From Synechococcus sp. UW140 (GTDB lineage Bacteria; Cyanobacteriota; Cyanobacteriia; PCC-6307; Cyanobiaceae), in the NCBI RefSeq assembly GCF_900474295.1, contig NZ_UCOB01000014.1, positions 1-64,000 of the forward strand: a DNA stretch of 64,000 nucleotides. The letters run 5' to 3'. Below are positions 8,837 to 36,847 of this stretch, in pieces. Positions within the stretch are counted from its first letter, which is position 1; each line of letters starts with the position of its first letter. The notes under the pieces were generated by a model. It saw only the letters and a list, made by a program, of their open reading frames with translations, was not told where the DNA came from and did no database searches. The position numbers and the translations under genes are program-made.

Positions 8837-9694
8837 TCAAGTGCGGCTGGAAAGCCTGGGCGTTTGAGCAAGCCAACAACGACCGAGCAATGCCAACAGG
8901 AAGCCAATGAACTGGATAATCACCACTGAGGGACCTGAAGGCAGATTGATCGCTCCCGAGACCAATATTCCACCCAAAGCACATCCACCACCGAGGGCTG
9001 CCGATAGAGCCACATAGGCAGGAAAACTGCGGCTGAGAAGACGACCAGCACAAGCGGGAATGACAACAAAAGCCGAAATGAGAAGGACACCAACGGCCTT
9101 GATCGAGACCGCCACAACAACAGCCAGCAACAGAGTGAATCCCAAGCGATGCAAGCGCGTGTTAACACCAACCGCACCAGCCAAGTCTTGATTCAAGGTG
9201 AGCAGCACTTGGGCACGCAAACTGATACCCAAATAAATTAAAGTTGTCACGAGCAGCCCTCCAATCACAACAAGATCAAGGGAACTAATGCCAAGGATGT
9301 CACCGAAAAGCAACTGCTGAATACCACCCCGATAGGATTTAACTTGGCTGAGCAAAAGTATCGCCGCAGCGAGCGAACTTGAGTAGACAATATTGAGCAA
9401 CGCATCGGTAGGTAGAGAACTGCGCTCAACCAGATAGCTCACCAGAAGAGCAAAGAGAACGGCAAATGGGATCAGTACCAAAATGGGATTCACGCCGATA
9501 ATGATGCCAAAGCTGATACCGAGCAAGGCAGAATGCCCCAAGGCATCACTGAAAAAAGAAAGCTTGCGTAGCACGGCAAAACTGCCAAGCACGCCGCCTA
9601 GAGCACCAGTCAACATCCCACCAAGCAGTGCGCGCTGCATAAACGGTTCTGCCAAAAGACTCATCAGGGAAGCTTCAGTCATGGCGGCAATCAC
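8837..9694 (-). CDS. znuB: Metal ABC transporter permease, ZnuB/MntB family
   Basis: A 285-residue inner-membrane permease with about eight hydrophobic segments and the ABC-3 family signature (LRKLSFFSDALGHSALLGI; later VNTRLHRLGF and VGVLLISAFVVIPA). It forms the pore of a periplasmic-binding-protein-dependent importer for a divalent transition metal. The GTG start overlaps the ATPase stop by four bases; an ATG four codons downstream is an alternative. It is the last gene of a four-gene operon led by a cobalamin riboswitch. The family is usually annotated for zinc or manganese, but the riboswitch argues for cobalt. Confidence 0.88.
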   Translation of the reverse strand: MIAAMTEASLMSLLAEPFMQRALLGGMLTGALGGVLGSFAVLRKLSFFSDALGHSALLGISFGIIIGVNPILVLIPFAVLFALLVSYLVERSSLPTDALLNIVYSSSLAAAILLLSQVKSYRGGIQQLLFGDILGISSLDLVVIGGLLVTTLIYLGISLRAQVLLTLNQDLAGAVGVNTRLHRLGFTLLLAVVVAVSIKAVGVLLISAFVVIPACAGRLLSRSFPAYVALSAALGGGCALGGILVSGAINLPSGPSVVIIQFIGFLLALLGRCWLAQTPRLSSRT

Positions 9695-10443
9695 TGGGCA
9701 ATGATGTTGGGGCCGTAAAGCTCAACAAGCCGTTCAGGCCTCAGCATCTGTTCAGGACTGCCGCTGCAACGTAATCGTCGATTCAGACAAAGCACCTGGT
9801 CGCTGCTGCGGCGGACCATCTCCAAATCATGCGAAACCTGAAGCACGGTCCAACCCTCCTGACGACGTAGATCCAGCAGCAACTGCTGAAACTGCTCAGT
9901 GGATGGAGCATCGAGACCCGCCTGTGCCTCATCCAGCACCAACAACCGACGTGGACGCACCAGACAAAACGCCAACAGAACACGTTTGAGCTGACCGCCA
10001 GACAATTCGCTCAACAAACGCCGGCGCAGATCAGCACAATTGGTTCGCTCTAGGGCGATCTCAACGGCTTGACGTCGTTGTTGCCAGCCATGCCACGGCA
10101 GACAAAGGCCTGGCCGATCGAAACCGAGATCAACGAACTCAGCAACACTGAGAGGGAAAAGACCTTGGAACATCAAGGTCTGGGGAACGTAGGCAATCTG
10201 AGAACGCAGCGATCGGGGCAGGCGACCGTCGGCGCTCATGGGCTGGCCAAGAAGCTTGATCTGCCCGGAACAACGGGGCAACAAGCCCAGTACCGCTGCC
10301 ACAAGAGTGCTCTTGCCAGCCCCGTTGGGACCGACAAGAGCGGTGTCACTTTCAGGCTGGAGAACAAAAGAAACGTCCTCAACGGCCAGGCGTCCGCCAC
10401 GCTCCACGCTGAGATCGTGAATTTGCAAGACGGACTGTTCCAT
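9691..10443 (-). CDS. znuC: Metal ABC transporter ATPase, ZnuC/MntA family
   Basis: A 250-residue ABC ATPase with Walker A GPNGAGKST (residues ~38-46), Q-loop AYVPQ, signature LSGGQLKRV, Walker B RRLLVLDEAQAGLD and switch His in VSHDLE. It powers the adjacent permease. It starts 6 bp after the binding-protein stop and overlaps the permease start. The Walker B region reads DEAQAGLD rather than the more usual DEPxxGLD, so the Pro after the catalytic Glu is replaced by Ala; the catalytic Glu is kept. Confidence 0.9.
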   Translation of the reverse strand: MEQSVLQIHDLSVERGGRLAVEDVSFVLQPESDTALVGPNGAGKSTLVAAVLGLLPRCSGQIKLLGQPMSADGRLPRSLRSQIAYVPQTLMFQGLFPLSVAEFVDLGFDRPGLCLPWHGWQQRRQAVEIALERTNCADLRRRLLSELSGGQLKRVLLAFCLVRPRRLLVLDEAQAGLDAPSTEQFQQLLLDLRRQEGWTVLQVSHDLEMVRRSSDQVLCLNRRLRCSGSPEQMLRPERLVELYGPNIIAQ

Positions 10444-10449
10444 CAGTCG

Positions 10450-11457
10450 TCAGCCTCCGAACGCCCGAAGGAGCGCCACCACATTGCGGCGCATCACCTC
10501 TAGATAGGTCTCAGGGTTCTGTGCTGCTTGCTCAGATCCGGTTTCCAGGGGGTCGAATGGAATCACAGTCACCCCAAGATCCTCAGCCAGAGCATTGAAC
10601 GAGCTTGCACCCTCCTGAGGCTCGCTCAATAAGGCCTTCAGTTGAGTGCGCTTGACCTTGTCAGAAACACGCTGTAAATCCGCTGGGGTGGGATTGATCT
10701 CCGGCACATCCACTACGTAATCAGCCTTGAGGTCATAACGCTCGGCGAAGTAAGGCGCAAAGTCGTGGAAGGCGATAAAGGTCTTGCCTTGGTAAGGCTT
10801 GAGTTGATCAGCGATCTCGCTGTTCAGTTGCTTGAGTTGGGTCGTGTAGGCCGCCGCCCTCGAGGTGTAGCCCTCTTTGCAACTGGGGTCAGCAGCCACG
10901 AGCCCGTCGCGAATCGTCTCAACCTGTTGGACGGCCCGTAGAGGATCAAGCCAAATGTGGGGATTCACGTCTCCATAATCGTGCCCCTCACTTTGGCCAT
11001 GATCTTCATGATGGTCGTCGTGGTGATCGTCATGGTGATCGTCTTCCTCATCAGATTCGATCACAGCAATGCCAGCACTGGAATCGATGATGGTTAGGTC
11101 GTCATTGCCTGCAGACTCGGTCAATTTGGCGAGAAAGTACTCCATCTCCAAGCCATTTTTGACCAGCACAGAAGCCTTGCTGAGCATGGCGATATCTCCA
11201 GGTCGGGCCTGAAAATCGTGAGGGCCAAGATTCGGAGGGATGAGCGCCGTCACGGTGGCGCACTCACCAGCGACAGCCCTGGTGAACAAGGTGATCGGCA
11301 GGAACGTAGTCACAACGTTGAGGTTCGCTACTGCACTACCACTGGATTCTGCTTGCGGTCGAGGAGAACCACAGGCCACAAGCGCAGCTGTGAGCAGGAT
11401 GGCGCCGGGGAGACGGCACATTGATTGGAGGCGAAAGTTGTTCATGGGGGACAACAA
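10450..11457 (-). CDS. znuA: Metal-binding lipoprotein, ZnuA family, with His/Asp-rich loop
   Basis: A 335-residue cluster A-I solute-binding protein. The N-terminus is a lipoprotein signal ending in LVAC (lipobox), so it is probably tethered in the periplasm. A loop at ~residues 145-163 consists of repeated DDHH units, and NPHIWLDP plus later HDFAPYF supply family metal-ligand histidines. The His-rich loop is typical of zinc- or cobalt-binding members and unlike manganese-specific ones. A likelier start is the ATG at 11445, which gives MNNFRLQS. It lies 24 bp downstream of the porin gene in the same operon and starts the ABC part. Substrate: zinc by family, cobalt by regulation. Confidence 0.88.
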   Translation of the reverse strand: MLSPMNNFRLQSMCRLPGAILLTAALVACGSPRPQAESSGSAVANLNVVTTFLPITLFTRAVAGECATVTALIPPNLGPHDFQARPGDIAMLSKASVLVKNGLEMEYFLAKLTESAGNDDLTIIDSSAGIAVIESDEEDDHHDDHHDDHHEDHGQSEGHDYGDVNPHIWLDPLRAVQQVETIRDGLVAADPSCKEGYTSRAAAYTTQLKQLNSEIADQLKPYQGKTFIAFHDFAPYFAERYDLKADYVVDVPEINPTPADLQRVSDKVKRTQLKALLSEPQEGASSFNALAEDLGVTVIPFDPLETGSEQAAQNPETYLEVMRRNVVALLRAFGG

Positions 11458-11481
11458 AAGACTAAATAGATCGCAGCCTGA

Positions 11482-13104
11482 TCAGAAGCTGAATGAAGTC
11501 TTCACAAGGGCACCCAACTGACTAAAACTCTTACCTTCCGATGTTTCCTGACCCAAAGGTCGGCTCAAATAGAACAATCCAGGGGTGACACTGATATTAT
11601 CTGAGACCATAAACTGATACCACCATTCCCAGACATAATTGCCATCGCGAGGAACAGAATCATCAACAAGAGCGGTCGCAAAGATAGGCTGCCCCACCGC
11701 CATGCCGGCATGATTACCCTGAAGGAACACATCACTCCAGTTCAGACCAACACTCCACGACTGGCTGGTGCTAACCAACAGATCGGCAGCAATCTTCTTA
11801 TCTTGATAAACACTCTTATCATAGGTTGTTTGATTGATTCCCCATCCCAAACTGATGGAAGGAATCAAGCCGCTTTCTTCTGGTTGCCAATAACCACTGA
11901 GCCCAAACGCTGAAGTTGATCCGGCATGCTCGTAGCTATCACTCACAAACTGCGTGCCGGAGGCGATAAGACCGTTGGCCTCACCCTTACCGTTGGTGTT
12001 TTGAATCGAGGAATAGATCGCCGCGATCCCCCACTGCTCCTGCTCAAAACCGAGCTGAACAGTGCCACTACCGGCAGAACCATCTGTGGCCATTCCTCCC
12101 TCGCGTGCATTGGAAGAATTGCCATTGGCGGCGACGTAATTGGCGGTCACACTGACCCCTCCCCGACTCCAAGTGAGGCCAGCACCAGCGCCAAGAGTCT
12201 TGTTGTATGCACCGGGCGCGCCATTCAAAGTGAGCACATCAAGAATGGGATCACTGGGATAAACACTGGGCCAAAAACCCAGCATGTCCTCCTGCCCCAC
12301 AAGACCACCTGCTGTAACAACGAAGTCGCTGCCAATCGGGAACGTATAAAAGAGCTTATTGATCACCAGATAGTTCGGCGTCTCACCTTCCTGAAAGGCT
12401 GTTTCCAGTGTCGAGACGGGCAGGAAGGCTCCACCAAATGCATTCAGATCGCCGTCAAAGTTGCCAGACCGCAAAACGGCAATCAGATTGTCTTTGCCAG
12501 TAAAACTGGTGTTGAGTGCCAATAAAGCATCGTAGTTGAAGGTCGTTGCTCCATATTCGCGATTGGCATTGTCAACATTCGGCCTGGCAGCCAAGGCTTG
12601 ATCGTTACCGCCAAACCTGTTGGCACCAATCACAAAAGTGACCAGACCTTCGAGCTTGGTGGTGGTGGCGAACTGGGTGGCTTCCAGTTCGCCAACGCGG
12701 GCTTCCAAACCGTCAACACGGCCCTTGAGGATGGCGAGTTCAGGCTCGAACTCTTTCATCAGGCGCTTCAGTTCGTCGGTCACTTCAGTGATCCGGTCGA
12801 GGCAAGCATTCAGTAGTGCGGCCGCTTCAAAGCGGGTCATCGCACGGTTGCCGCGGTAGGTGCCGTTCGGGTAGCCGGCGACGCAGCCGTAGCGCTCGAT
12901 CAGGTTCGACAGAGCCTGATAGGCCCAGTCAGTCGGAACCACATCCGAGAACTGGGTGATGCTGGTGACCTGCTCGCCACTGCTTAAATAAGAGTGAGCT
13001 GCGTAGTCAGAGACGCCAGTAATGCTGAGCGGATTGGCATAGACGCCAACAGCCAGTGAGCCAATGCCAGCGGGAGCCAGCAGAAGCCGCTTGAAAAGCT
13101 TCAA
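11482..13104 (-). CDS. SLH-domain outer-membrane porin (SomB/OprB type)
   Basis: A 540-residue porin of the cyanobacterial SLH-OprB class: signal peptide, an SLH segment near residues 50-100 (DVVPTDWAYQALSNLIERYG, TRFEAAALLNACLD), a coiled-coil linker with LKGRVDGLEARVGELEA, and a C-terminal beta-barrel ending in the aromatic TSFSF. It should form a channel in the outer membrane anchored to peptidoglycan. Reading starts at TTG (13104) with GAGG nine bases upstream. Porins of this type are often called iron-uptake or general porins; being first gene of a metal ABC operon suggests a dedicated metal channel. Confidence 0.88.
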   Translation of the reverse strand: MKLFKRLLLAPAGIGSLAVGVYANPLSITGVSDYAAHSYLSSGEQVTSITQFSDVVPTDWAYQALSNLIERYGCVAGYPNGTYRGNRAMTRFEAAALLNACLDRITEVTDELKRLMKEFEPELAILKGRVDGLEARVGELEATQFATTTKLEGLVTFVIGANRFGGNDQALAARPNVDNANREYGATTFNYDALLALNTSFTGKDNLIAVLRSGNFDGDLNAFGGAFLPVSTLETAFQEGETPNYLVINKLFYTFPIGSDFVVTAGGLVGQEDMLGFWPSVYPSDPILDVLTLNGAPGAYNKTLGAGAGLTWSRGGVSVTANYVAANGNSSNAREGGMATDGSAGSGTVQLGFEQEQWGIAAIYSSIQNTNGKGEANGLIASGTQFVSDSYEHAGSTSAFGLSGYWQPEESGLIPSISLGWGINQTTYDKSVYQDKKIAADLLVSTSQSWSVGLNWSDVFLQGNHAGMAVGQPIFATALVDDSVPRDGNYVWEWWYQFMVSDNISVTPGLFYLSRPLGQETSEGKSFSQLGALVKTSFSF

Positions 13105-13105
13105 G

Positions 13106-13250
13106 AGTTCGATCCTCGTCGAGTTGTAGGCCTGGCGGGCGTTCTGACTGACTCTTCAAAACGAAGAGCTTCACAGCTGCGGGACAGCGTCGGAATTACA
13201 CCGATCTTTCCCCGTTTCCTTCAGCGGCTGATCCCCGCTGAAACCAGAGC
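13106..13250 (-). promoter_or_regulatory. Cobalamin riboswitch upstream of porin/ABC operon
   Basis: Read on the minus strand, the leader contains the conserved cobalamin aptamer core: GGGAAAGATCGGTGTAATTCC, then GCTGTCCCGCAGCTGTGA, a variable arm (13150-13172), and the closing GTCAGAACGCCCGCC strand. The same core, in the same order, precedes the HupE-like gene at 25.75 kb. The 3' end carries TCGACGAGGATCGA, where two self-complementary TCGA arms flank the ribosome-binding GAGG, so ligand binding could hide the translation start of the porin. Repression of the operon by cobalamin is the known behaviour of the class. Confidence 0.9.
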
Positions 13251-13391
13251 GCAACACTACAGGCACTCACGAGCATTCACCACACGCAGGATCAATTGAT
13301 ACGGCGCCGTGAGCGGACATCACCTCCCCTCAGGGCCGATTGCCACCTTGAGCAGGATCATCGGAGCGAGCAGAGCCCAGCTTGCAGCTGC

Positions 13392-13574
13392 TTAAGACTC
13401 CTCAGCCTCAGCGATGCAATTCTCCTCAGAGTCCGTCGCTTGGTCGTCATCAGCCACCGCTTCATCGCAGTCTTGCTCGATTTGCGCCACAACGAAATCG
13501 GGAGCAACTGGAGCCGCGAAAGCCACAAAAGGGGCTGCCAGGGCAACAACAAGTGCAGCGAGTGTTGTTTTCAT
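13392..13574 (-). CDS. Small acidic secreted peptide with signal sequence
   Basis: A 60-residue protein: 20-residue signal peptide (MKTTLAALVVALAAPFVAFA) followed by a ~38-residue acidic tail with two Cys (QDCDEA and ENCIA) and many Asp/Glu. Not a family I recognise. Two cysteines in a secreted peptide could form a disulfide or bind metal. It lies just upstream of the cobalamin-riboswitch operon on the same strand. No clear ribosome-binding site is seen, so it is plausible rather than certain. Confidence 0.55.
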   Translation of the reverse strand: MKTTLAALVVALAAPFVAFAAPVAPDFVVAQIEQDCDEAVADDDQATDSEENCIAEAEES

Positions 13575-23748: not shown

Positions 23749-24336
23749 TCAAAAGCCTGAGAAGGGCAGGGAAGAGTGGTGGAGAATGATGCGGAGCGAT
23801 CCATCATCATCACGCACATAACCAAATGTTTTGTCGACCATGCTCTTCGACCCATCAGCAGCCACAAAATGGACCCACCCCATCGCATTGGCCGTATTGC
23901 CGAAGGATTGAATCACAACAATCTCTGGCGTGCACTCCACCCAAGGGCTGCGTTGGCTATTCGGGAATCCGATTGCAAAGCCAGGGTCAGCGAAAGCACT
24001 ATCGTCACCGACGAAATAAGACAATGCCCCCGAACGTGTTTCGCGGAAGGTGGTGTCACCTTTCGTCCAAGTAGGCTTGAAGGACACAGGTCCAAACTGG
24101 TAGCCATAGGCCGCATCAATCACCTCACCAGCTAAAGGCTTCGATTTTTCGATCCCCCCCTCAGTATGGGCCTTGCTGATGGCAAGAAGAGCATCACACC
24201 AACCTTGTTGCGCTGCCTGAACCTCACTGATCTGAATGGTTTCATTCATCACGGCAGGCTTGGCCTCAGCCGCCAATGGAGCGATACAACAAACAGCTGC
24301 AGAAAGCGAACCAGCAAGAGCAAAGGATCGAAACAT
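23749..24336 (-). CDS. Secreted SnoaL/NTF2-like protein
   Basis: A 195-residue protein from ATG 24336, with signal peptide FRSFALAGSLSAAVCCIAPLAAEA. The mature part (VQAAQQGWCDALLAISKAH..., AYGYQFGPVSFKPTW, LSYFVGDD, GFAIGFPNS, ILHHSSLPF) matches a family of exported NTF2-like proteins that is sometimes mislabelled phosphoribosyl-AMP cyclohydrolase. The final HHSSLPF is typical. Probably periplasmic; ligand unknown. An in-frame ATG five codons upstream is possible. Confidence 0.75.
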   Translation of the reverse strand: MFRSFALAGSLSAAVCCIAPLAAEAKPAVMNETIQISEVQAAQQGWCDALLAISKAHTEGGIEKSKPLAGEVIDAAYGYQFGPVSFKPTWTKGDTTFRETRSGALSYFVGDDSAFADPGFAIGFPNSQRSPWVECTPEIVVIQSFGNTANAMGWVHFVAADGSKSMVDKTFGYVRDDDGSLRIILHHSSLPFSGF

Positions 24337-25026
24337 AATCAAAAGATGCATCGACTTGTCTATAGCAAGCAGCAGGCATCGGAACAGTAAAAATATGCAA
24401 CTCCTCACCAAGGAAAGTGCAGGGTGAACAGTTGACCAAAAAGATCTTCAAGCGAAGCCTCCAATCAATCTGACGGAACTCCACACCAAGATGGAAACAG
24501 GGGGAAAACATAATTAGAGCAAGTGATCTGATCTTGGAAGCGCGGTCGAACCTTATCGGCAATGAACAGAGCAGAAGAAGCGACACCATCGCATCAGAGT
24601 GAACTGTCCAAGGAATAAAGAAACAGTCCACAGGCAGAATGGGAAGCACCTTCAGCCTGAGGCAAGGCATGAATGGCAACCAGCTGTAAGTATCCCTTCC
24701 CAACAATCAGAACCAGACGCTCGATGACAGACAACCGAGCAGCTGGTTGAACCTTTCAGCTGTTGGGGTGGTCTGACCGTAAGGAGGAGACAACGAGAAA
24801 AGGGCTGGCGCCACACTGATTTGTTCGTTTCCTGGAACTAATACCACCAATCCAAGGCAGAGTTGCCATCGTGTGGCGCTCCTCCATTCTTGAGGCTACT
24901 AGCGAGCAATTCTAAGGCCAGTGTTGGTATTGACGCTCAACGTAGCGGCAGCAGAAACCCCTAAAACTATTGAAGCGATTGCGCAACAAAAGGCACTACA
25001 AAGCCCAATTTATTTGAATTCACACC
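24337..25026. other. Long intergenic region without a recognised gene
   Basis: About 690 bp with only poor-quality overlapping ORFs and no repeat or structured element that I can defend. It separates the terminator of the hupE-like gene from the secreted protein gene, both on the minus strand. Confidence 0.4.
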
Positions 25027-25108: not shown

Positions 25109-25744
25109 TCAATCAACGAGGGCGACCCAAGCAAAAGCGAGGCCAATCCCAATCCAAATTCCAGCACCCACGCGCTGGCCCTGTTCACCCAACCAGTTGA
25201 TCACACCTTTGGACGCCGTTGTGACAAGCAGCAGCAATGCACCCTGGCCAATCAGGAGGCCCAAGAAATAAGTAGCAAGGGGTGTGGGTTCGGCACCAAC
25301 AATGGTGTTTCCCAGAAGGAAACCATGCAGGCCAATCAAAGGAAGCAGCCACTGCACCGGTACCAGCGCCAGGGCCATCAGCCCCTCGACCACCAGCGAG
25401 AGTGAAACGAGAGCTTCCGCCCAAGGGGCGATGGCATCGGGCAGGGGAATGAACTGGGAGAGGGCACTACCGGCCAAGCCCACAGACAGCAAAGGGAGCA
25501 CCCAGTTGAGCGGACGACGCAGGCCAATGAAGGCGATCGCGACCAGGAACAAAAGATGGTCTGGGCCCAGCAGTGGATGTCCGATACCGCTCAGCAGTCC
25601 TTGCCATGCCGTCAGGCCGGTGCTTTCGCCCATCCCAAAGGGATGGTGGGCATAGGCAGGAACGGCAATGGAAGCCGCCACAACCAGGGGTGCCGACAAG
25701 AGCCCAGCCTTCTGCACGGCCAGCAAGGGTCGTGATGACGTCAT
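25109..25744 (-). CDS. hupE: HupE/UreJ-family metal transporter (predicted cobalt)
   Basis: A 211-residue membrane protein from ATG 25744, preceded by GAGG at seven bases. A signal-like N-terminus ends before AHHPFGMGE; six or so membrane segments follow. The family signature HPLLGPDHLLF (HX5DH) is present in the first helix. HupE/UreJ proteins carry nickel or cobalt; those under cobalamin riboswitches are predicted cobalt transporters. A longer ORF to 25894 runs through the riboswitch and is not translated in my reading. A terminator follows. No urease or hydrogenase gene is nearby, which also favours cobalt. Confidence 0.88.
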   Translation of the reverse strand: MTSSRPLLAVQKAGLLSAPLVVAASIAVPAYAHHPFGMGESTGLTAWQGLLSGIGHPLLGPDHLLFLVAIAFIGLRRPLNWVLPLLSVGLAGSALSQFIPLPDAIAPWAEALVSLSLVVEGLMALALVPVQWLLPLIGLHGFLLGNTIVGAEPTPLATYFLGLLIGQGALLLLVTTASKGVINWLGEQGQRVGAGIWIGIGLAFAWVALVD

Positions 25745-25747
25745 AAT

Positions 25748-25888
25748 CGATCCTCGTCGAGTGGAAACCTGGCGGGCGTTCTGACTGGCACCATCAAGGA
25801 AGAGGTGCATCACAGCTGCGGGACAGCGACGGATTCGCACCGTTCTTTCCCCGTTTCCTTCAGTGGCTGATCCCAACTGAAACCAGGT
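25748..25888 (-). promoter_or_regulatory. Cobalamin riboswitch upstream of hupE
   Basis: Minus-strand leader with the same core as the element at 13.1 kb: GGGAAAGAACGGTGCGAATCC, CGCTGTCCCGCAGCTGTGA, a variable arm and CAGTCAGAACGCCCGCC. The 3' part again has TCGACGAGGATCGA with the ribosome-binding GAGG in the loop, next to the ATG. High cobalamin should reduce cobalt import. Confidence 0.92.
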
Positions 25889-26053
25889 GATCAACTTATC
25901 AAATCACGGCCTTTTCCTAACCAAGGCACACCAGCCCTGCTTGTGACCATTCACCGCTGCCAGACAAGTGATCAAAGATTCAAGATGGACTGCCAGAGTG
26001 AGTTGGTGATCCTTAAGCCAAGGCAGCCAAATACCTTAAGAGCAAACTCAGAA

Positions 26054-30574: not shown

Positions 30575-31444
30575 TCAACCTGGCAAAGAGGGCTGACGGC
30601 GAAGAATGCCGTGATGCGGTGCGAACAGAAAAGCCAGCACAAACAAACCGGTCTGAACCAGCACGATGCATCCCGCTGGAGAACGATCGCTCCAATAGCT
30701 AACGAACACTCCCACAACACTGGAAATCACACTGCTGGCAACGGCCAAAAGCGTCATGCGATCGAAGCGATCAGTGAGCAGATAGGCGGTGGCGCCTGGT
30801 GTTACGAGCATGGCCACCACAAGGATGATCCCGACTGTTTGCAGACCTGCGACCGCCGCCAGAGACAGAATGGACAACAACAGGTAGTGAAGCAAGCCGG
30901 TATTGATCCCAATGGAGCGCGCATGGGTGGGATCAAAACAAAACATCAGCAGATCTCGACGGAACAGCAGCAACACCGCAAACACCACCATCGAAATCAG
31001 CAGGGTCTGCTGAATGTCGGCATTGGAAATACCCAGCACGTTGCCGAACAGGATGTGGAAGAGGTCGATATTGCTCCGCACGTTTGACACCAAGACGAGT
31101 CCGAGCGCGAAGAAACCGGTAAAGACAAGGCCGATCACGGTGTCTTCCTTGATGCGCGATTTCTGTTGGACAAAGCCGATTGTGGCCACAGAGCCCACCC
31201 CGAACACAAACGCCCCTAGGGAGAAGGGAAGCCCAAGGGCATAGGCCAGCACCACCCCAGGAAGCACCGCATGGGAGACGGCATCACCCATGAGGGCCCA
31301 CCCCTTCAGGGTCATGTAGCAGGAGAGCAAGCCGCACACCGAGCCAACCAAGGCACTGATGCACAGGGCACGCACCATGAATTCATGGCGGAGAGGCTCC
31401 AGCACCCAATCGATCAGCACCCACCACTCCAGGACACCTGGCAA
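30575..31444 (-). CDS. mntB: Manganese-type ABC transporter permease MntB
   Basis: A 289-residue ABC-3 family permease with about eight membrane segments and the signatures MTLKGWALMGDAVSHAVLPG and AVAGLQTVGIILVVAMLVTPGA. It pairs with the MntC- and MntA-like genes at 32-33.75 kb, from which it is separated by 583 bp; the usual order is mntCAB without a gap. Best match is to the manganese branch, consistent with MntC next door. The DUF3721 gene follows. Confidence 0.85.
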   Translation of the reverse strand: MPGVLEWWVLIDWVLEPLRHEFMVRALCISALVGSVCGLLSCYMTLKGWALMGDAVSHAVLPGVVLAYALGLPFSLGAFVFGVGSVATIGFVQQKSRIKEDTVIGLVFTGFFALGLVLVSNVRSNIDLFHILFGNVLGISNADIQQTLLISMVVFAVLLLFRRDLLMFCFDPTHARSIGINTGLLHYLLLSILSLAAVAGLQTVGIILVVAMLVTPGATAYLLTDRFDRMTLLAVASSVISSVVGVFVSYWSDRSPAGCIVLVQTGLFVLAFLFAPHHGILRRQPSLPG

Positions 31445-32027
31445 GTCTCTCAGGACGAAGCAACAATGCCGTCAAGCAATAGCGACAAGCAATGGCAGGG
31501 CGACAAACCCGCCACAGCTCGAACCAATCAGTCGGCCACGCCCACCGAGCCGCGCTCTGTTGCAGGCCTGAAATCGGGCCGCTGGCGACGCTGCTCAACG
31601 CAGCCGCAGCCAAGAGATTCAGAAAGGAGTCATCACGCAATACGAGCAAGAGCTCCGCTCACCACGGGCCTCATCATTCCGAACTGCACAACAGCAGAAC
31701 ATCGCAACGCGAAAAAAGACAAGCCACTAGCACGCATCAAGCAACCTTGAATGAGTACTTTGACCTAACTTTGGACGCCTAACGAAATTTCATGAAGTTG
31801 TGTGCTTTTATATTTAAGCCGTCCGCCTATGCATCAATGATCTTCTTTGCGGGAACTTTAGTAGCCACAACTACCGTCGCATTTGTATTTGTCATGCGCT
31901 CGATTTTAAAAGAGCTTGATATAAAGCTTTCTCTTCCATCCCTTCCTTCAATCAGCCTTCCTTTCACGAAGCGTTCAGTTCAGTCCGCCAATATCTGAGC
32001 AGCCCATCCCCACGCCATCAGTTCTAT
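31445..32027. other. Insertion-like gap between mntA and mntB
   Basis: 583 bp separate the ATPase and permease genes. The part nearest mntB (31445-31790) holds only poor ORFs and is followed by a lower-GC segment with the small plus-strand ORF at 31792. Confidence 0.5.
31792..31998 (+). CDS. Small single-pass membrane protein in the mnt gap
   Basis: A 68-residue ORF with a central hydrophobic segment (YASMIFFAGTLVATTTVAFVFVM) and a Ser/Pro-rich tail (LSLPSLPSISLPF). It is on the strand opposite the transporter genes and its DNA is AT-richer than the surroundings. No family recognised; it could be a recent insertion. Confidence 0.45.
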   Translation: MKLCAFIFKPSAYASMIFFAGTLVATTTVAFVFVMRSILKELDIKLSLPSLPSISLPFTKRSVQSANI

Positions 32028-32795
32028 CTAAGGACGACTATCAGAGTCAGCCTTGCTGTTGCCGGTGAGCAGATCAGGGGGAACACCACCAAAGGTGAGT
32101 GAGAGATTTTCGGAGGTAAAAACCTCCGAAGTCTCGCCGTAGGCAAGAACGGTTTTGTTGATCAACACCACCAGATCACAAAACTCACGCACATGGCTGA
32201 GGTCATGGGTGGAGATCAGAATGGTGCGCCCCTCACTGCGAAACTGCAGGAAAAGATCAGCCATCAACTTCTCGGTGCGCACATCCACGCCGTTGAAGGG
32301 CTCATCAAGCAGGAGCACCGAGGCCCCCTGAGCGATGGCACGGGCAAGAAACGCTCGCTTGCGCTGACCACCAGACAACGCCCCGATGGGACGATCACGG
32401 AGAGGGAGCAAGTCCACTTGGGAGAGGGCCTCCCGCACGGCAACGCGGTCCGCACGGGCTGGAATCCGCAGCAGATTCATGGCGCCATAGCGACCCATCA
32501 TCACAACGTCCCACACCGAGACCGGGAAGTTGTTATCGATGCCTTCGCTCTGAGGAACGTAGGCAACGGCCTGCTCCCGCTGAGCCTCCGCCACAGTCAA
32601 GCCATTGATGCGAATTCGACCACGGGATGGGCGCACGAATCCTGTCAGTGCCTTGAACAAGGTGGATTTACCTGAACCATTCATTCCCACCAAGCCACAG
32701 ATGCAACCGGCGGGCAGCACCAGCGACGCGTCGTGAAGCGCCACCGTGGCGTTGTAGTTCACGCAAAGGTGGTCGGCCTCGATTCGCATCGTCAT
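32028..32795 (-). CDS. mntA: Manganese-type ABC transporter ATPase MntA
   Basis: A 255-residue ABC ATPase: Walker A GMNGSGKST, Q-loop AYVPQSEG, signature LSGGQRKRAFLARA, Walker B VLLLDEPFNGVD, switch ISTHDLSH. It belongs with the MntC-like protein 2 bp upstream. It energises manganese import; co-located with mntB in the same direction. Confidence 0.9.
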   Translation of the reverse strand: MTMRIEADHLCVNYNATVALHDASLVLPAGCICGLVGMNGSGKSTLFKALTGFVRPSRGRIRINGLTVAEAQREQAVAYVPQSEGIDNNFPVSVWDVVMMGRYGAMNLLRIPARADRVAVREALSQVDLLPLRDRPIGALSGGQRKRAFLARAIAQGASVLLLDEPFNGVDVRTEKLMADLFLQFRSEGRTILISTHDLSHVREFCDLVVLINKTVLAYGETSEVFTSENLSLTFGGVPPDLLTGNSKADSDSRP

Positions 32796-32797
32796 GG

Positions 32798-33751
32798 CTA
32801 CTGACCCTGCGGACTGAGACCCTTGCGGATGAGTCTCACATTGTGCCGCTGCAATTCCAGCAGCGTGGGGGCCGGTCCGTTGTGTTCCGAAAGAGAGTCG
32901 ACGTAAAAGGTGCCTCCGAAGCGGACTCCGGCAGCGGACGCAACCTGCCGCTGAACTTTGTCGCTGACAGTGCTTTCACAGAACACCGCAGGCACCTCGG
33001 ACGTCCGCACCGTTTCGATCAGCCTGGCCATGCGCTTGGGAGTGGCCTGGGTCTCGGCATTAACGGGCCAGAGATAGGCCTCTTCCAGGCCATAGTCTTT
33101 GGCCAGATAACTAAAGGCGCCTTCACAGGTCACCAGCAAACGTTGACGCTCGGGCAGTGCATCTAAGGAGGATCGCAGCTCGCGATCAAGCTGTTGCAAC
33201 TGCTGCTTATAGACCTCACCATTGCGACGGAAGCTCTCTTCCCCGGCGGGATCCAATCCGGAAAAGGCGGCAACAATCCGATCCACGTACTGCTGGGCCC
33301 GTTGGGGAGACATCCAGGCGTGGGGATTGGGACGACCTGCATAGGCATCCCCTTCAATCAACAAGGGCTCAATCCCCTGGGTGAGCGTGACGGTGGGAAC
33401 ATCTCCAGCGGCGGCGGTGAATCGTTTGGCCCAAAGTTCAAGACCCAAACCATTCTCGAGAATCAGCTGCGCTGAAGCTGCCTTCTCCAGATCACTGGGA
33501 GTGGGTTCATAGCCATGAATTTCAGCACCCTGCTTGGTGATGGAATGCACCTGCAGTCGGTCTCCGGCCACATTGCGGGCCATGTCGGCAAGAACGGTGA
33601 ACGTGGTCAGCACCACCGGCCGGCTATCAGCAGGTCCACTCTGCTGACCCTGAGGAGAGCGGCAAGCGGTAGTGACCAGAAAGGCCAGCAGCGAAAGAGC
33701 CGTCAACGACCTCGCAAACCTCAGAGCAGGGATGGTTAGCACCGAGTCCAA
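32798..33751 (-). CDS. mntC: Manganese-binding lipoprotein MntC
   Basis: A 317-residue cluster A-I binding protein with a lipoprotein-like N-terminus (LLAFLVTTAC). MntC-type features are EIHGYEPTPSDL and NPHAWMSP (metal His), TCEGAFSYLAKDYGL, YLWPVNAE, FCESTVS and FYVDSL. The Cys pair (TCEGAF and VFCEST) fits the disulfide described for cyanobacterial MntC. There is no His-rich loop. Start is a TTG at 33751. Upstream DNA has strong inverted repeats (33821-33882). Confidence 0.9.
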   Translation of the reverse strand: MDSVLTIPALRFARSLTALSLLAFLVTTACRSPQGQQSGPADSRPVVLTTFTVLADMARNVAGDRLQVHSITKQGAEIHGYEPTPSDLEKAASAQLILENGLGLELWAKRFTAAAGDVPTVTLTQGIEPLLIEGDAYAGRPNPHAWMSPQRAQQYVDRIVAAFSGLDPAGEESFRRNGEVYKQQLQQLDRELRSSLDALPERQRLLVTCEGAFSYLAKDYGLEEAYLWPVNAETQATPKRMARLIETVRTSEVPAVFCESTVSDKVQRQVASAAGVRFGGTFYVDSLSEHNGPAPTLLELQRHNVRLIRKGLSPQGQ

Positions 33752-34922: not shown

Positions 34923-35061
34923 CCTCAACTGGCACAGTGCCAGTTGAGGCGCGATTGTTCCATTGTGTGAGGAGAAGGATCAAGAGACGGAGTCGAAACA
35001 AGGACAGACGCCCGTCTCTCTGATCTGAATCCCAACTCCGCCCTCGGCGGAGTTTTTTTTT
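34923..35061 (+). ncRNA. Candidate small RNA 1 with terminator
   Basis: No coding gene is on the plus strand here, yet a textbook terminator ends this stretch: ACTCCGCC (35035-35042) / GGCGGAGT (35046-35053) followed by a T-run. Just upstream is a perfect 27-nt palindrome (CCTCAACTGGCAC, A, GTGCCAGTTGAGG; 34923-34949). I infer a plus-strand sRNA; the 5' end is not defined. Confidence 0.5.
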
Positions 35062-36751: not shown

Positions 36752-36847
36752 AGAAATGCCCTATAGTGAAAGCACGTTGAGCCCCATCTGGGGCTGCAGT
36801 TCGAGCTACGCCAAGCAACGGGGGCGTAGGCACTGTGGAGTTCAACC
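36752..36847 (+). promoter_or_regulatory. Promoter and structured leader of the DUF4278 gene
   Basis: A TATAGT (36762-36767) is a good -10 element. The short leader then forms GCCCC/GGGGC (36782-36795) and CTACGCC/GGGGCGTAG (36809-36832) hairpins before the ATG. I do not see a convincing -35. Confidence 0.4.

Follow-up and report, generated by a model that had tools for sequence, protein, structure and literature searches.

A cobalamin riboswitch directly precedes four minus-strand genes, encoding an SLH/OprB porin and a zinc-type ATP-binding cassette (ABC) importer (ZnuA-type binding lipoprotein, ATPase and ABC-3 permease), in the first 64,000 nucleotides of contig NZ_UCOB01000014.1 of Synechococcus sp. 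UW140, the whole stretch analysed here and called the window below. In our reading this porin-ABC operon is probably a cobalt uptake system gated by B12 and put together from a lineage of zinc importers. Cobalt is in our judgement the best reading of the physiological cargo because of the other members of the riboswitch regulon, a gene run in a relative that joins such genes to hupE, the apparently repeated capture of the importer by the riboswitch, and the zinc genes that the genome has to spare. The protein sequences alone would not say cobalt; they still argue for zinc binding, and the binding protein very likely binds zinc as well.

The operon and its cargo class

The aptamer upstream of the porin gene matched the whole of Rfam model RF00174 (model positions 1-189 of 189) at 56.1 bits, where the gathering score is 31.5 (E 3.1e-11, cmscan), bearing out a cobalamin riboswitch that had been called from the letters alone; that earlier, sequence-only reading also had the gene order and families on the minus strand right, as judged from profile matches (Table 1). 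Its spacings (24 bp, 6 bp and a four-base overlap) are correct for the longest open reading frames (ORFs). The binding protein has an alternative start at ATG 11445, and the permease likelier starts at ATG 9682, the place at which the homologous permease of locus L065 starts; with these two starts the gaps become 36, 6 and 8 bp. The TTG start of the porin at 13104 has, by eye, an in-frame counterpart in L065 and L205.

With a ZnuA-type binding protein, an ABC ATPase and an ABC-3 permease all present, the importer is of the ZnuABC type (ABC-3 family). Each component scored below the NCBIfam cut-offs of the zinc models: the binding protein at 158.3 of 350 (AztC) and 147 of 268 (ZnuA), the permease at 131.2 of 284 (ZnuB) and 151.1 of 280 (AztB), and the ATPase at 142 of 220 (AztA) and 137.2 of 306 (ZnuC). 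The best solved relatives of the binding protein were AdcA (7jj8, E 2.4e-38) and the ZnuA of Synechocystis (1pq4, E 4.1e-36), and the ATPase was 56-77% identical, over at least 200 residues, to the ATPases adjoining orthologous binding proteins, where these were found.

It is general knowledge that B12 riboswitches often precede B12 transporters (see also PMC3766115), which would favor an importer of B12 or another corrinoid over one of a bare metal ion. We regard such a cargo as extremely improbable: the permease is ABC-3 and not FecCD/BtuC (scores in Table 1), the binding protein is ZnuA, and no TonB-dependent receptor (PF00593) was matched in the genome, all in keeping with the earlier statement that these proteins are not BtuBFCD. 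Manganese was rejected as a cargo, both by the separate manganese-type ABC system of the window, which scores higher on Mn/Fe-type models, and by the His, not Glu, at the third ligand of the binding protein, a rule for metal type that draws on PMC8786288 and on general background.

Table 1. Positions of the operon, its control elements and other features within the window
Feature	Position	Strand	Evidence
Cobalamin riboswitch aptamer (RF00174) of the porin-ABC operon	13117..13263	-	cmscan
Expression platform hairpin TCGA-CGAGGA-TCGA	13109..13122	-	Loop with Shine-Dalgarno-like GAGG, 13114-13117
SLH/OprB porin (por_somb family)	11482..13104	-	NF033921, 278.1 bits (cut-off 100); PF04966, PF00395
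ZnuA-type metal-binding lipoprotein	10450..11457	-	PF01297, 245.4 bits
Importer ATPase	9691..10443	-	PF00005, 93.3 bits
ABC-3 (ZnuB-type) permease	8837..9694	-	PF00950, 188.5 bits (FecCD 27.9)
hupE/ureJ family gene	25109..25738	-	PF04955, 52.5 bits (cut-off 23)
Second cobalamin riboswitch, before hupE	25754..25902	-	cmscan, 62.8 bits, E 3.6e-13
Manganese-type ABC system	30575-33751		Profile matches
Cyano-1 RNA	34961-35030	+	50.5 bits
Glutamine-II riboswitch	36772-36830	+	54.8 bits

Expression platform

The hairpin after the aptamer holds its Shine-Dalgarno-like site in the loop, and the TTG start codon lies 8 nt past that loop. We compared 31 of the 35 riboswitch sites listed for the genus. 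At all 31 the aptamer leads into a short hairpin of the form NCGA-CGNGGA-TCGN, or one closely similar, with a Shine-Dalgarno-like site within its loop and a possible start codon 4 to 12 nt on; the outermost pair can form at 21 sites (T-A in 14, A-T in 7) and cannot at the other 10. Because every site has this hairpin with its Shine-Dalgarno-like loop, translational control by the riboswitch is likely. The rarity of the arrangement might suggest that the riboswitch before the porin landed there by chance and controls nothing useful; we consider this very unlikely, given a hairpin and start spacing like those of the other riboswitches and a riboswitch-importer pair that was seemingly assembled twice (below). 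Just 5' of the riboswitch and on the same strand lies an ORF (13392-13574) for an acidic protein of 60 aa with a signal-peptide-like start.

We propose the following scheme, which supposes that the riboswitch binds its ligand, that ligand blocks the ribosome's access to the Shine-Dalgarno site and that the operon is co-transcribed. At low (pseudo)adenosylcobalamin the riboswitch would keep the Shine-Dalgarno site of the loop accessible, allowing translation of the porin-ABC message; metal would cross the outer membrane via the porin and be bound by the ZnuA-type lipoprotein, and the ATPase-permease pair would pump it in, feeding cobaltochelatase. With plentiful cofactor the RNA would fold so that the site is blocked. 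The operon would offer a second, binding-protein-dependent route beside the riboswitch-controlled HupE.

Genes after cobalamin riboswitches

The whole assembly (2.70 Mb in 35 contigs, 99.98% complete) gave two RF00174 matches, 12.5 kb apart: that of the porin-ABC operon and one before hupE, whose product contains HPLLGPDH, an instance of the HupE/UreJ family motif HPXXGXDH (given in PMC7689651). PMC4284471 and PMC7689651 describe cobalt transport by HupE and, for marine cyanobacteria, the B12 riboswitch of its gene. The porin-ABC operon is linked to cobalt and B12 genes in three ways: it has the same riboswitch as hupE, genome G123 carries hupE in one run with such genes, and the genome encodes CobN (1680.7 bits).

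Across the genus, whose strains we take to be marine, the first gene after the riboswitch encoded HupE at 28 of the 31 sites (27 by tblastn homology and one of a second HupE type, PF04955 52.2 bits), led into a porin-ABC operon at two (the window and G075) and encoded a small secreted protein at one (G155). A family sample, consisting of the 29 best-scoring further riboswitch matches outside the genus, gave a HupE homologue first at 27 loci (36-72% identical, one of them seen over 22 residues only), CbiM at one (191.7 bits) and a contig edge at one. By these homologies, the first genes thus have cobalt uptake in common. Genes beyond the first were compared with the window's own proteins and with the ZnuA of contig C6 (below) only. 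At that depth, the order riboswitch-hupE-porin was found in seven genomes (G141, G152, G154, G155, G157, G159 and G170), with porins 64-71% identical to the window porin (that of G157 in two pieces), and in G123 the riboswitch, hupE, porin and ABC genes form one co-directional run.

The G155 exception (L222, 4970-5400) is a riboswitch followed by a gene for a small secreted His-rich protein with a Cys/His-containing tail, which may be an addition to the B12 regulon; the protein resembles DUF3721.

Zinc genes elsewhere in the genome

The genome encodes three members each of the ZnuA family, the ABC-3 permeases and the Fur-family regulators. The third ZnuA, on contig C6, has a weaker Zur-type box (17.3 bits by the matrix described below). 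A regulator encoded close by has the solved WH8102 Zur (7NE9) as its best match, with E 2.1e-50 (next best 1.6e-18); the other two Fur-family regulators match 7NE9 far less. ZnuC and ZnuB of the C6 type occur together on contig C1, the former 74% identical to the ZnuC of G170 and the latter 65-72% identical to its counterparts in four members of the genus; near this pair no box scored above 8 bits. We infer that the C6 ZnuA works with the C1 ZnuCB. With separate ZnuA, ZnuC, ZnuB and Zur in the genome, zinc need not depend on the window operon, and the idea that the operon is the only zinc importer of the genome, suggested by the lack of an ATPase or permease gene adjoining the C6 ZnuA, was dropped once the C1 ZnuC and ZnuB were found. 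Between the Zur gene and the ZnuA gene of C6 (L218, 7890-9098) is a gene whose product looks like an outer-membrane protein and contains a long His/Asp/Glu repeat of the form (GDEDH)n.

Zur-type boxes

A palindromic box lies close upstream in all nine genus ABC loci that have no porin (L207, L209-L214, L216 and L217), within two mismatches of a 15-base pattern that fits the Zur consensus given in PMC9337993. We built a weight matrix from 12 of 14 boxes, comprising eight from ABC promoters (one a named record, L152, and seven from those nine loci) and four from C6-type ZnuA promoters; L208 (a poorer match, with the porin divergent) and L144 (same genome as L207) were left out. The training boxes score 29.3-33.4 bits, and 99% of shuffles fell below 6.9 bits in a control that used plain base shuffling of one 155-nt upstream stretch.

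By this matrix there is no Zur-type box before the window riboswitch (best -3.1 bits). Zur-like boxes do stand directly before the riboswitch in G075 (15.5 bits) and G123 (23.3 bits), and before riboswitch-hupE in G034 (19.2 bits; L112, 3865-3879) and G173 (14.6 bits; L109, 4257-4271); in the last two, riboswitch-hupE is perhaps under both a Fur-family metal repressor and the B12 switch. The other 27 of the 31 upstream stretches reached at most 1.6 bits; the scan sets in roughly 55 nt ahead of the aptamer core, cutting a box that pattern search had found in G155, and this box may belong to a divergent Mn-type gene.

These boxes would suit an importer of both zinc and cobalt, opened by the riboswitch for cobalt and, in the relatives, shut by a Fur-family box under excess of the other metal, avoiding zinc over-import. 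The box just before the riboswitch in G075 and G123, and before riboswitch-hupE in G034 and G173, fits this scheme, which we nonetheless think quite improbable: the window has no such box, and the riboswitch-side boxes differ by eye from the zinc-promoter boxes, so that Fur and Zur cannot be told apart as their readers.

Apparent capture at the hupE locus and a probable separate origin in the window

Counting homologues at E up to 1e-20, we found the binding protein in 53 of the 151 genomes sampled from the family and in 17 of the 31 of the genus; the loci compared were 40 of the 62 family-sample matches besides the window's own, and those of all 16 other genus genomes with a match. In the tree of the ABC genes the window joins five porin-carrying genus operons (L065, L205, L206, L069 and L072) with support 100/99. 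Among them, G101 and G151 lack the riboswitch, G075 and G123 have it, and the G162 module runs into a contig end inside the porin. In the G151 operon (L205, 8033-11332) the ABC genes are preceded by a tandem pair of porin genes that are almost identical.

In G034 and G173 riboswitch-hupE stands alone next to an RNA-methyltransferase-like gene. This locus holds the porin-ABC module in G123 and G075, and in G162 the module is flanked by the same genes; in G101 and G151 the boxed module sits at another locus. A riboswitch tree of 143 columns, in which few branches are supported, joins L069 and L072 (the riboswitches of G123 and G075 between them) to L109 (G173) and L112 (G034) at 100/99. The zinc loop of the binding protein is nearly bare of His at the hupE locus, with none in G123, none in G162 and one in G075, the lowest counts among 134 rows (G075 tied with three others); some genomes occur twice in these rows, one row has no ligand motif and a few automatic loop limits are wrong. 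A further binding-protein gene, that of G166 (L215, 7551-8502), contains one in-frame TGA and was recovered as two pieces; it is possibly a pseudogene or a sequencing error.

The window probably has another history. Its operon riboswitch falls outside the group of L069, L072, L109 and L112, with no supported placement in the riboswitch tree, and its porin groups not with the porins of the other ABC modules but, at 100/99, with those of L121, L122 and L223 (riboswitch-hupE-porin) and of L208/L215, the last two divergent from their ABC genes. Forcing the window porin together with the six other ABC-linked porins was rejected by the approximately unbiased (AU) test (p-AU 6.9e-6), as was uniting the three ABC operons that bear the riboswitch in a single clade (p-AU 3.2e-5); the groups for these tests were named after the trees had been seen. 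A single origin of the riboswitch-ABC link was rejected on this basis. Gene order around the window hupE largely matches that of G159, except for the porin gene after hupE, which only G159 has. One capture followed by exchange of the porin, or riboswitch loss in G101 and G151, could mimic separate origins and would be less simple. Because of the porin tree, the ABC tree and the locus, we hold that the window arrangement arose separately; it resembles a second event of assembly, with a riboswitch and a hupE-type porin placed at the head of the ABC genes, and close relatives appear to have brought the importer under the B12 riboswitch independently.

We advance tentatively, with somewhat less than even confidence, the fuller history that these trees suggest: on two or more occasions in marine Synechococcus, a B12 riboswitch took control of a porin and a zinc ABC importer, which became a cobalt scavenger, and the zinc loop of the binding protein was afterwards lost in one of these lineages, a step that the window's protein would not yet have taken.

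Cobalt or zinc

Several observations weigh against cobalt uptake under direct B12 control. The three zinc-type His at the ligand positions are conserved in the window binding protein (by alignment), and the His/Asp loop that the sequence-only reading had pointed out is real, with 8 His in 34 residues, a His-rich loop being called specific to zinc binders in PMC8786288; both the ligands and the loop are features of zinc ZnuABC. Orthologous porin-ABC modules stand under Zur-type boxes in two relatives of the genus, G101 (26.9 bits) and G151 (26.0 bits, between its two porins). Linkage to the riboswitch is rare: 3 of the 17 genus genomes with the binding protein have it (one more, G162, is cut by a contig end), as do 2 of the 40 family-sample loci (again G075 and G123) and none of 80 named loci, where a core-pattern scan, over loci many of which are short, sought a riboswitch on the gene's strand. 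G075 has no hupE at the shared locus, and its porin begins about 280 nt past the aptamer, after a short ORF, so that control there is less direct. Lastly, a scan that covers sigma-70-type sites found no minus-strand promoter-like site 5' of the window riboswitch.

The zinc-type ligands and loop, the orthologues under Zur-type boxes and the nearest solved relatives, which are zinc proteins, would all fit an operon that still imports zinc, now under B12 control, supplying more of it when B12 is short; the zinc might feed enzymes that replace B12 enzymes, or zinc and cobalt might be interchanged in some enzymes. We judge this unlikely. The genome retains a second ZnuA, with its 17.3-bit box and Zur close by, as well as a ZnuCB pair; G123 has the hupE-porin-ABC run; and at the other riboswitch sites the first gene belongs to a cobalt-transporter family, bar one small secreted protein and one contig edge. 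The cobalt cargo proposed in the sequence-only reading was strengthened by the hupE riboswitch, the cobalt-transporter families that nearly always come first at the other sites, the G123 run, the seemingly twice-formed link and the spare zinc genes, and weakened by the zinc-type ligands that were kept and the orthologues under Zur-type boxes; cobalt remains our preferred cargo, with zinc or a mixed cargo as the alternative.

Other observations near hupE

About 700 bp 3' of hupE and on the same strand, a gene at 23749-24411 encodes a secreted protein that scored 175.6 bits with the metal-independent carbonic anhydrase model NF047901, below its cut-off of 350. Between it and hupE is, by eye, a terminator-like hairpin.

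Relation to known systems and meaning

Among the closest known systems is the riboswitch-hupE of cyanobacteria, which has the same riboswitch family and hairpin platform, occurs in the same genome and, in G123, in the same gene run; HupE is a single membrane permease, whereas in the window the riboswitch precedes a porin together with an ABC importer that depends on a binding protein. Zur-controlled ZnuABC (synw0969-0971 of Synechococcus WH8102, PMC9337993) shares the protein families and the ligand type, but the window operon carries a B12 riboswitch and lacks a Zur-type box, and the boxed ZnuA lies separately, by Zur. The cobalamin riboswitch operon BtuB-BtuFCD of Anabaena likewise has outer-membrane and ABC parts; according to PMC10878165 it imports cobalamin through a TonB-dependent receptor, of which none was matched here.

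The energy-coupling factor (ECF) cobalt importer CbiMNQO is also a primary cobalt transporter under a B12 riboswitch, and one riboswitch of the family sample precedes CbiM; CbiM (PF01891) had no match in the UW140 genome, and to our knowledge CbiMNQO has neither a binding lipoprotein nor a porin. According to PMC4284471, CbiMNQO/NikMNQO were the only primary cobalt/nickel transporters that studies of 19 cyanobacterial genomes turned up. Riboswitch-hupE in marine cyanobacteria is already known. In the literature searched, with few subscription papers within reach, no ZnuABC-type importer was described as belonging to that regulon or as controlled by a B12 riboswitch, nor was a binding-protein-dependent primary cobalt importer of this kind proposed for picocyanobacteria.

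Annotation by protein family would label the window operon as zinc. If cobalt is its true cargo, some 'zinc importers' of ocean genomes are misnamed, and the relatives form matched sets, with the importer under a Zur-type box or a B12 switch and with or without the His-rich loop, that allow a direct test of metal choice. The operon would then be a case of an evolutionary switch of metal cargo caught through a switch of control.

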